DNA from: Nitrospiraceae bacterium
Lineage (GTDB): Bacteria; Nitrospirota; Thermodesulfovibrionia; UBA6902
NCBI GenBank assembly: GCA_020356065.1
Contig: CP070632.1
Location: 1,572,799-1,614,042, forward strand
Length of the DNA stretch: 41,244 nt
Direction: 5' to 3'
Shown: one piece after another, positions 32,009 to 38,779 of the stretch
Layout of the letters: each line of letters opens with the position of its first letter
Position numbering within the stretch: position 1 is the stretch's first letter
Notes under the pieces: generated by a model
The model's input: only the letters and a program-made list of their open reading frames with translations
Database searches by the model: none
Told to the model about the DNA's origin: nothing
Program-made: the position numbers and the translations under genes

Positions 32009-32875
32009 ATGCCAGAAGTACTTGAAGAGGCGATAACGCTTCAAAACGATTTAAAAGAAAGCAGCAAAGCACTCCTGCCAGATCCAGGAAGAGATTCCGG
32101 ATCAATAAACGGTTTTCACTTCAAACTCCCTGTTTTCGAAGGACCCCTTGATCTTCTGCTTCACCTGATCCGAGAGAACAAAATAGACATTTATGATATT
32201 CCCATCGTTGATATAACCCGACAGTACATGGTGTATATAGAACTCATGAAAGAGCTGAACCTTGAGATAGCAGGAGAGTTCCTTGTGATGGCGGCAACAC
32301 TTATTCACATTAAATCAAGGACCATTCTCCCCCCTGCCGAAGAAGAGGTTGCAGAACCGGAGGAAGATCCCCGTTCCGAGCTCGTCAGGAGACTGCTGGA
32401 GTATCAGGCCTATAAGGAATCCTCTATCAGTCTGAGAAAAAGGGAAGAAATATGGAAGAATGTCTTTTGCAGGGACCTGCCTGACAGGAACGATTATGAA
32501 TTTGAACCGGAACCGGTGCTTTTTGAGGCAAATGTATTTGATCTGATCACGGCATTCCAGAAGATGCTGGAAAAGGCACCTGAGCAAAACCTTGAAATCA
32601 CCCGTGAAACCCTTACGGTAGCTGATAGAATCAATTACATTGTGGAGCGTATTGAACATGTGGACGGGGTACGATTTGAAAACCTTTTTGAGGAGGGCTG
32701 TACAAAGGTCACATTGCTGGTAACGTTTCTTGCCGTACTTGAGGTCGTCAGGCTCGGGCTTATAAAGATTTATCAGGAGCGTGCATTTGGACTTATATGG
32801 TTGATGAATCCCAGGAAACAGGGAGCACAAGCTCCGGAAAAGACACATGAGGAATCCCTGACGGATTCCGCTTAA
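32009..32875 (+). CDS. scpA: Segregation and condensation protein A
   Basis: Kleisin subunit that bridges the SMC heads in the bacterial condensin. The 288-residue protein has the family N-terminal core FKLPVFEGPLDLLLHLIRENKIDIYDIPI, then LVMAATLIHIKSRTILPP, and a C-terminal winged helix with VTLLVTFLAVLEVVRLGLIKIYQ. It has a non-conserved leader of about 35 residues and a polar tail. No scpB follows: the next gene is convergent, so ScpB must be elsewhere. Confidence 0.95.
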   Translation: MPEVLEEAITLQNDLKESSKALLPDPGRDSGSINGFHFKLPVFEGPLDLLLHLIRENKIDIYDIPIVDITRQYMVYIELMKELNLEIAGEFLVMAATLIHIKSRTILPPAEEEVAEPEEDPRSELVRRLLEYQAYKESSISLRKREEIWKNVFCRDLPDRNDYEFEPEPVLFEANVFDLITAFQKMLEKAPEQNLEITRETLTVADRINYIVERIEHVDGVRFENLFEEGCTKVTLLVTFLAVLEVVRLGLIKIYQERAFGLIWLMNPRKQGAQAPEKTHEESLTDSA

Positions 32876-33300: not shown

Positions 33301-34326
33301 CTACCGAACGACTATTTTACCACGGCCTTTTTCAACTTCCCCGATAATCCAGTAGGGCATCTTTCCCTTTTTCGCAACCCGTTCAAATTTCTTCAATCCT
33401 TCAGATGGAAGAGATATCAATAGCCCCCCGGAAGTCTGGGGATCTGAAAGCGCCAACCTGGCACCTTGAGAAACCTCATTTGCAAAGCTGGTATCTTTAA
33501 TACAGAAGTCCAGGTTGTTTCTTGCCCCTTTCGGGACAGCTCCTGTTTCTGCGAGATCCTTAACTTTTTTCATGAGAGGTACTTTTTCACTGTCTATTAT
33601 CAGATTTACTCCAGAGCTCTTTGCCATATTTAATCCGTGGCCGAGGAGGCCAAATCCTGTTATGTCCGTTGCAGCATGCGCCCCTGCTGATACCGCGGCC
33701 TTTGAGGCTGTATTGTTTAATGTCAGCATTGACTCAACAACCTCATTCAGGTACTGTTTCCCTACTTTTTTCTTTTTAACGGCAGAGGTAAGAATTCCTG
33801 TTCCCAGGCTTTTGGTTAACACCAGAATATTACCCGGCCTTGAACCGGCTACCTTCAGTATCACGTCTTTTTCAACAACCCCTGATACGGCAAATCCAAA
33901 TTTGAATTCGTTATCCTCAATTGTATGTCCACCTATTAAACATGCATCAGCTTCATTCAGCTTGCTGATGGCGCCCTGTAACAGTCTCCTGATGGTGGAT
34001 GAATCGAAATCGCATGAGGCAAATCCCAGGATGGCAAGTGCCGTAAGGGGCTTCCCTCCCATTGCATACACATCACTTACCGAGTTGGCTGCACAGATAG
34101 CCCCGAAAGTGTAAGGATCATCAACGATGGGCGTAATGACATCAACCGTCTCCACCATAAGGGTATTTTTATAACGGTAGACCCCTGCATCATCGCCGGG
34201 ACCGACGACAACGCTTCGGTTTTTGCACTTATAAAGATCTGACAGTATTTCAGAAAGGTCCGCCGGACCTAATTTTGCCGCTCACCCGCCGGCTTTGACC
34301 TTTTCTGTTAGTCTGATATGTTTCAT
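33301..34326 (-). CDS. selD: Selenide, water dikinase, a selenoprotein
   Basis: SelD makes selenophosphate from selenide and ATP, the selenium donor for Sec-tRNA. Translation from the ATG at 34326 gives RLTEKVKAGG, then an in-frame TGA (34282-34284, codon 15), then AAKLGPADL and VVVGPGDDAGVY before continuing into VETVDVITPIVDDPYTFGAI. TGA sits where other SelDs have the catalytic Cys or Sec, followed by the conserved catalytic Lys18, so it must encode selenocysteine. Full length is 341 residues, normal for SelD; starting at the ATG at 34158 would lose the active site. No Shine-Dalgarno; a strong promoter ends eight bases before ATG. Confidence 0.95.
34256..34284 (-). promoter_or_regulatory. 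UGA-Sec codon and bSECIS-like hairpin in selD
   Basis: Counting from the U of UGA, nucleotides 15-20 (AGGTCC) pair perfectly with 24-29 (GGACCT) around a GGC loop at 21-23; the hairpin is at 34256-34270. In E. coli fdhF the SelB-binding apical loop lies at about the same distance. The coding sequence is also constrained here, so function is inferred. Confidence 0.75.
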
Positions 34327-34334
34327 ATTCGATT

Positions 34335-34363
34335 ATATTACTGAAATGAATTTGGCATGTCAA
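34335..34363 (-). promoter_or_regulatory. Promoter of selD, leaderless spacing
   Basis: On the minus strand TTGACA (34358-34363), a 17-base spacer and TAATAT (34335-34340), ending eight bases before the selD ATG. An overlapping TATAAT (34332-34337) is an alternative -10. Confidence 0.7.
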
Positions 34364-34385
34364 AAGTATGCATATGTTTTGACAT
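34357..34385. promoter_or_regulatory. 29-bp palindromic operator candidate between selD and PHP gene
   Basis: ATGTCAAAA-N11-TTTTGACAT, with perfect 9-bp arms. Each arm contains the -35 of one of the two divergent promoters, so a dimeric protein bound here could control both. A near-identical palindrome is at 37952-37980. Confidence 0.6.
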
Positions 34386-34408
34386 TTAGCTTAAAATTAC
34401 TGCATATT
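34379..34408 (+). promoter_or_regulatory. Promoter of the PHP gene, leaderless spacing
   Basis: TTGACA (34379-34384), an 18-base spacer and CATATT (34403-34408), ending eight bases before the ATG at 34417. The -10 is weaker than that of selD. Confidence 0.5.
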
Positions 34409-34416
34409 ACATAGTT

Positions 34417-35070
34417 ATGATCGATCTTCATACTCATAGTCTGTTAAGTGACGGTGTGCTGCTTCCAACAGAACTGGTCCAGAGGGCCAATCATGCCGGA
34501 TATCGTGCAATAGCTATTACTGATCATGTTGACAGGTCAAACATAGATTTTGCAGTTCCACGGCTGATTCAGGCCCTTGATGAACTGCAGGAACACACAC
34601 CCGTGCAGGTCATTCCCGGAGCTGAGATTACCCATGTTCCTCCTGTGTTGATCGGAACACTTGTAAAAAGGGCCCGGGAGCTTGGAGCCAGAATAGTGGT
34701 GGTGCACGGGGAAACAGTTGCAGAGCCGGTGATAGACGGCACAAACAGAGCGGCCATTGAATCAGGGGCTGATATTCTTTCTCATCCCGGTTTAATAAGC
34801 ATGGAAGACGCTGTGCTGGCTCGGGAAAAAGGAGTGTACCTTGAAATATCAGCCCGCAAGGGGCATAGCCTGTCTAACGGTCATGTAGCCAAAGTGGCAA
34901 TGGCAGCTGGTGCAGGCATGGTTATTAATACGGATGCGCATGCACCTGAAGACCTGATATCTCGTGAAAGGGCCGTTATGATTCTGAAATCTGCAGGTAT
35001 TCCGGAAGAAAGTATAGAGACGATCTTTGCTCATTCGCAAACGCTTGTCGATAAAGTCGGGAGGAAATGA
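34417..35070 (+). CDS. PHP-domain phosphoesterase
   Basis: A 217-residue protein consisting of one PHP fold, the trinuclear metal hydrolase fold of histidinol phosphatase and of DNA polymerase PHP domains. It starts MIDLHTHSLLSDG (metal His residues), then AITDHVDR, PGAEITH, VVVHGE, LSHPGLI and INTDAHAPED with the expected His and Asp ligands. Likely a phosphatase; the substrate is not known. A histidinol-phosphatase role is possible given hisCB in the same window but is not supported by linkage. No Shine-Dalgarno. Confidence 0.88.
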   Translation: MIDLHTHSLLSDGVLLPTELVQRANHAGYRAIAITDHVDRSNIDFAVPRLIQALDELQEHTPVQVIPGAEITHVPPVLIGTLVKRARELGARIVVVHGETVAEPVIDGTNRAAIESGADILSHPGLISMEDAVLAREKGVYLEISARKGHSLSNGHVAKVAMAAGAGMVINTDAHAPEDLISRERAVMILKSAGIPEESIETIFAHSQTLVDKVGRK

Positions 35071-37951: not shown

Positions 37952-37980
37952 ATGACAAAAATTTAGAACTGTTTTGTCAT
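37952..37980. promoter_or_regulatory. 29-bp palindrome before the TPR gene
   Basis: ATGACAAAA-N11-TTTTGTCAT: perfect 9-bp arms and an 11-nt centre, the same geometry as the selD/PHP palindrome, with arms differing at one base per arm. It sits 62 nt after the DUF2914 stop and just before the -10 of the next gene. It lacks a T-run, so it is not a typical terminator. Confidence 0.5.
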
Positions 37981-38032: not shown

Positions 38033-38779
38033 ATGAATAAAATATATGTACACATACTATGTATTAAGCTCCTGGTATTTGTTCCTGCCTGCAGCGGCAA
38101 AGTTGCCAGATCAGAGAACGCTCCAATTGTTCCAGAGGAAATAAGCATCTCTGCTGTATCTCCTGAGTCCATGCAAGCCATACATAATGCCAAAGAATAT
38201 GTGAAGAATAATCCCGGCATTGCAGAGGGCTACTACCATTTAGGGACCGCTAGCCTTGGAGGAGGATTTATTGATGAAGCAGCAAAGGCGTTTATTGAGA
38301 CGATCAGAATTAATCCTGACCATGCAAAGGCCCATAACGGTCTTGGTGTTGCTCACGGAAAATTAAATATGTACAATGAAGCCATAGAGGACTTTATGCA
38401 GGCGGTACGAGTCATGCCGGAATATGCGGAGGCTCACTATAACATGGGACGAGCTTTTGAAATACTGGACAGGCCTGATGCAGCAATTACAGCTTATGAA
38501 AAGGCAATTGAGGCTGATAACGAGTTTTTTGCAGCCCATTACAATCTTGGTAATGTGTTCATAAAGCGAGAAAACTATGTACAGGCTGTAGTTGCACTGA
38601 AAAATGCTGCTCTGTTAAATCCGGATGACATCATGACTCATTTCAATCTTGGTACTGCTTATGCAAAATCAAAAAACAGAGGTCTGGCCCTTGAAGAATA
38701 TAAAATACTAAAATCCCTCGACAGACAGATGGCTGACTCACTGTTTGACGTGATATATGAATCCCCGGATGAAAAATAG
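38033..38779 (+). CDS. TPR-repeat (lipo)protein
   Basis: A 248-residue protein. The N-terminus is a short hydrophobic signal with a possible lipobox V-P-A-C (C20), though the signal is weak. From about residue 64 on, five consecutive 34-residue tetratricopeptide units follow (AEGYYHLGTASLGGG, AKAHNGLGVAHGKLN, AEAHYNMGRAFEILD, FAAHYNLGNVFIKRE, IMTHFNLGTAYAKSK), a protein-interaction scaffold. Partner unknown. Confidence 0.88.
   Translation: MNKIYVHILCIKLLVFVPACSGKVARSENAPIVPEEISISAVSPESMQAIHNAKEYVKNNPGIAEGYYHLGTASLGGGFIDEAAKAFIETIRINPDHAKAHNGLGVAHGKLNMYNEAIEDFMQAVRVMPEYAEAHYNMGRAFEILDRPDAAITAYEKAIEADNEFFAAHYNLGNVFIKRENYVQAVVALKNAALLNPDDIMTHFNLGTAYAKSKNRGLALEEYKILKSLDRQMADSLFDVIYESPDEK

Follow-up and report, generated by a model that had tools for sequence, protein, structure and literature searches.

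Gene organisation of the selD-PHP locus

The window analysed here is a stretch of 41,244 nucleotides from the genome of a Nitrospiraceae bacterium. It contains selD and a gene for a PHP-domain protein in divergent orientation, separated by an intergenic region of 90 bp (34327-34416). The features of the locus are as follows.

33301-34326, minus strand: selD, selenide water dikinase, 341 amino acids (TIGR00476, E=3.6e-100), with an in-frame TGA (Sec) at codon 15, translated with TGA=U
34335-34340, minus strand: predicted -10 box of the selD promoter, TAATAT, ending 8 bp before the ATG (promoter scan and relatives)
34358-34363, minus strand: predicted -35 box of the selD promoter, TTGACA, inside the left palindrome arm (promoter scan and relatives)
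34357-34385, no strand: inverted repeat of 29 bp, ATGTCAAAA-N11-TTTTGACAT, its spacing kept only in the genus of the window (g1)
34379-34384, plus strand: predicted -35 box of the PHP promoter, TTGACA, inside the right palindrome arm (promoter scan and relatives)
34403-34408, plus strand: predicted -10 box of the PHP promoter, CATATT (class consensus CTG-TATNTT), ending 8 bp before the ATG (promoter scan and relatives)
34417-35070, plus strand: PHP-domain protein of the PRK06361 type, 217 amino acids (NF004981, E=5.3e-86; PF02811)

The PHP gene is annotated as histidinol-phosphate phosphatase domain-containing. The mechanical list of open reading frames wrongly starts selD at 34158, and SelD is thereby shortened by 56 residues. 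The N-terminus encoded at 34266-34326 on the minus strand contains the TGA codon 15 within an AGGU motif, which would make SelD a selenoprotein itself. A single in-frame TGA was likewise found in SelD orthologues from about 70 relatives, orthologues from most of the class share this feature, and SelB is encoded in the genome. Because these relatives share the codon and selB is present, selenocysteine is the most likely reading of the UGA at codon 15. No tRNA-Sec above the Rfam cut-off was detected in the genome, selB notwithstanding.

Two promoters and an inverted repeat in the intergenic region

A promoter scan over 2 kb returned only two promoter-like sites with 10 of 12 matching positions, TTGACA-18-CATATT on the plus strand (34379-34408) and TTGACA-17-TAATAT on the minus strand (34363-34335). 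Each strand thus has its own -35 and -10 boxes, as is the case in a divergent pair of sigma-70-type promoters. CATATT, the -10 box of PHP in the genus of the window, is a poor match to TATAAT. The first-pass annotation had described a palindrome with one TTGACA -35 box in each arm, and this was confirmed at 34357-34385 by the sequence and the promoter scan. The left arm ATGTCAAAA occupies 34357-34365, the middle is GTATGCATATG and the right arm TTTTGACAT occupies 34377-34385.

As a palindrome alone, the 29-bp repeat is unremarkable. Perfect 9-bp inverted repeats with spacers of 1-25 bp occur nine times in the window, compared with 3.7 +/- 1.7 in first-order Markov shuffles. A second inverted repeat, TGACAAAA-N11-TTTTGTCA (37953-37979), has the same spacing as the selD-PHP palindrome and an unrelated-looking sequence, and lies upstream of a TPR gene at 38033. 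A scan of the window against Rfam gave no match at the gathering threshold. In the 3.17-Mb genome, the exact palindrome occurs a single time. When up to 3 mismatches were allowed, a whole-genome search for a regulon gave 41 matches for the palindrome and 40 for its reversed control. Since the motif count equals that of the control and the exact copy is unique, these sites do not form a regulon.

Conservation of each promoter on its own

Judged by its named relatives, the genome of the window belongs to Nitrospirota and lies near Thermodesulfovibrionia. For comparison, 37 genomes of the family and 64 from the order and class were used. The PHP promoter was modelled as TTKAC, a spacer of 16-19 bp and YANNNT, and was tested on 70 genomes. 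It matched in 50 of them, most of which do not have selD next door. The spacer is 18 bp long in 49 of these 50 genomes, and 35 of them have 8 bp between the end of the -10 box and the ATG. The model of the selD promoter matched in 26 of 30 cases. Nine of the matching promoters face PHP and 17 do not, and the two groups do not differ in their -35 and -10 consensus. TTTGAC is present in 25 of the 26. Their -10 box (TATCAT, TATTAT or TAATAT) lies 8 bp from the ATG in 17 cases and at 6-12 bp in all 26.

Conservation starts sharply at each -35 box. The profile of pairwise identity among the relatives is at chance level ahead of this box (0.28 for PHP, 0.27 for selD), rises to 0.91 (PHP) and 0.98 (selD) inside it and is 0.79 (PHP) and 0.82 (selD) in the -10 box. 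No conserved operator was seen in this profile outside the two promoters. The arm belonging to PHP is conserved where selD does not adjoin, and that of selD where PHP does not adjoin. The earlier proposal of back-to-back promoters that run straight into their genes, with 8 bp between -10 box and ATG, is thus supported, both promoters being strongly conserved in relatives.

These data also bear on a chance origin of the repeat, devoid of any promoter role. Palindromes of such size are indeed not rare in the window, but both arms lie within promoter blocks that are sharply conserved in many genera, which renders this explanation extremely unlikely.

Variable spacing between the two promoters

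Direct divergence of selD and PHP was seen in three members of the genus and in eight genomes belonging to other genera. Within the genus, 15 bp separate the -35 hexamers, corresponding to a distance of 21 bp between the centres of the arms. Where the pair occurs in other genera, the gap is 25 bp (five genomes of four genera), 37, 38 or 54 bp, and the arms are 31, 43, 44 or 60 bp apart from centre to centre. Among the five pairs with the 25-bp gap, the left and right promoters have mean pairwise identities of 0.60 and 0.78, against 0.35 for the middle.

Another genus, g2, was found to lack an orthologous selD, and the SelD protein encountered there is a paralogue with about 39% identity. Even so, the left TTTTGACA promoter persists in g2 without its selD orthologue, at a gap of 26-27 bp, and is now adjoined by a HEAT-repeat gene which elsewhere follows selD.

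The first-pass annotation had further proposed that selD and PHP could be switched jointly by a dimeric regulator bound to the 29-bp palindrome. The 9-bp arms are perfect, they are kept in all three sequenced members of the genus with the gene pair except for one base in one of them (right arm TTTTGACTT in place of TTTTGACAT), and their spacing of 21 bp corresponds to two helical turns. A shared operator should nonetheless display half-sites at a fixed spacing, tied to both genes or recurring at other targets. No fixed half-site spacing was found among the relatives with the same pair: outside the genus the palindrome is not conserved, which is what the annotation itself had named as evidence against its proposal. 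Either arm is conserved separately where the partner gene is absent, conservation ends at the -35 boxes, and the motif is not enriched in the genome, where no other good copy of the palindrome exists. With neither the spacing nor the middle conserved and the arms kept singly, a regulator tying selD to PHP is not supported and is considered very unlikely.

The distances were also examined for helical phasing. If they corresponded to whole helical turns (about 2, 3 or 4), two polymerases, or a regulator tolerating flexible spacing, could sit on the same face of the DNA. The -35 to -35 distances of 21, 31, 32-33 and 43-44 bp amount to 2.0, 2.95, 3.1 and 4.1-4.2 turns, and the state of the genus is 10 bp away from the common 31-bp state. 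This 31-bp distance is held in four genera while the intervening sequence varies, and its constancy next to an unconserved middle could reflect a phasing constraint. Against this stand a pair whose distance is 60 bp (5.7 turns) and the Rayleigh test, with p about 0.09 for distinct states and about 0.17 for changes, from few independent events. The phasing of the -35 boxes is thus suggestive but not significant, and functional placement on one face of the DNA appears unlikely.

Predicted leaderless transcription of selD and PHP

Leaderless bacterial genes are conventionally recognised by a TANNNT-like signal that precedes the start by about 10-12 bp (Zheng et al., 2011; PMC3160421). The text of that study makes no mention of Nitrospira. 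In selD and PHP, the -10-like box is situated 8 bp before the start codon, within the range of about 6-9 bp expected of TA-led leaderless genes, and this position is conserved in relatives. The scored list has no Shine-Dalgarno-like tetramer ahead of the PHP start, and none was found before the selD start by reading. The two genes therefore resemble the TA-led leaderless genes of Zheng et al. (2011; PMC3160421) in having a -10-like TANNNT some 10-12 bp ahead of the start codon and in lacking a Shine-Dalgarno site. They differ in that two such genes are here divergent, and in that the PHP promoter adds a conserved 18-bp spacer and a TTTCTG block.

Because each -10 box lies 8 bp before the ATG, the 5' end of each mRNA is predicted at or next to the start codon, with transcription starting no more than about 2 bases away from it. 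Both mRNAs would then be translated without a Shine-Dalgarno site. In a genome sample of 441 kb, -10-like boxes 6-8 bp before ATGs numbered 10, 13 and 9, compared with a mean of 5.3 (sd 2.5). Since this enrichment is only moderate, leaderless genes are probably a minority class in the genome. Another likely leaderless gene, judged by its upstream sequence, is scpA at 32009, where a promoter-like TTGCAA-16-TATAAT ends 8 bp before the ATG and a Shine-Dalgarno site is lacking. The motif TTGAC-N17-19-GTATCWT gave nine matches in the genome of the window and one in the control; it was dropped as a promoter class, as only one match (L151) was located at the start of a leaderless gene.

Probable origin of the palindrome and possible coupling of the two genes

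The arrangement is very probably that of two independent sigma-70-type promoters placed back to back, TTGACA-17-TAATAT-8-ATG for selD (minus strand) and TTGACA-18-CATATT-8-ATG for PHP (plus strand), from which leaderless or nearly leaderless mRNAs are predicted. The palindrome would be a by-product, and any coupling of the genes at most passive. The repeat would be made up of a -35 box on either strand, both bordered by conserved T-rich sequence of their own and lying 15 bp apart in the genus; a palindrome would result from the short distance at which two conserved TTTTGACA(T) boxes oppose one another. The distance in the genus, 10 bp off the commonest state, would bring the boxes near enough to resemble one element. 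The locus offers a clean example of a palindrome arising from two opposing -35 boxes, and the attractive idea that selenium metabolism is tied to the PHP enzyme is left without support.

Back-to-back promoters are able to affect each other via supercoiling or competition (PMC4469952). At this locus, two polymerases may compete for the shared 15 bp, and negative supercoiling would be generated behind each of them. Such passive competition and supercoiling is the sole form of coupling between selD and PHP to which the data lend support. The E. coli pairs fepA/fes and ilvY/ilvC (PMC4469952) are comparable in having two opposed promoters in a short intergenic region, where coupling by supercoiling or competition is possible. 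In contrast to these pairs, the selD-PHP locus has both transcription starts predicted at start codons, and neither a regulator gene nor an operator was identified there.

Divergent transcription also results from the symmetry of promoter sequences in the bidirectional promoters described by Warman et al., with transcription start sites 7-25 bp, usually 18 bp, apart (PMC10268837). These promoters have one near-symmetric -10 element serving both strands, whereas selD and PHP have two complete promoters with their -35 boxes facing each other. A bidirectional promoter with a shared -10 element was ruled out, as the -10 boxes of selD and PHP are 62 bp apart and the predicted start sites about 90 bp. 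A literature search for divergently transcribed selD found nothing.

The PHP promoter in Thermodesulfovibrionia

The consensus of the PHP promoter is TTKACWTTT-N9-TTTCTG-TATNTT (TTKACWTTT-N9-TTTCTGTATNTT), with a fixed spacer of 18 bp. The promoter (34379-34416, with homologues L005-L031 and L108-L147) can be recognised in much of Thermodesulfovibrionia, several families having TTTAC in place of TTGAC. It was not recognisable in the deltaproteobacterial homologues. A putative leaderless promoter that can be followed across much of this largely uncultured class should be useful for promoter annotation there.

Some of its conserved positions go beyond the needs of sigma-70, namely TTTCTG before the -10 box and, within the family, the 8 bp that lead up to the ATG. 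This pattern of conservation makes a gene-specific factor or an additional protein contact at the PHP promoter possible. When the promoter core was searched as a genome-wide motif in 46 relatives, perfect matches fell at the PHP start and looser ones were at control level. Similarly, TTTAC...GTATYYTT was near control level in ten genomes of other families, except for the PHP site and one repeated sequence. A more elaborate reading would be a class-wide control element specific to PHP, mostly with one good copy per genome and recognised by a dedicated factor beyond sigma-70, with the selD promoter lying in helical register and hence mechanically coupled. This combination is regarded as quite unlikely.

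The sequence TTTACTTTTCTCTCCATTTTGCGGTATCTTT, which fits the consensus of PHP promoters in other families, is present in three copies in one genome (L264, G072) and also in a second one (G087), possibly as part of a repeated element. In two genomes (L018, L017), some 45-60 bp are found in addition between the conserved -10 box of PHP and the ATG, an extension which would end leaderless initiation there.
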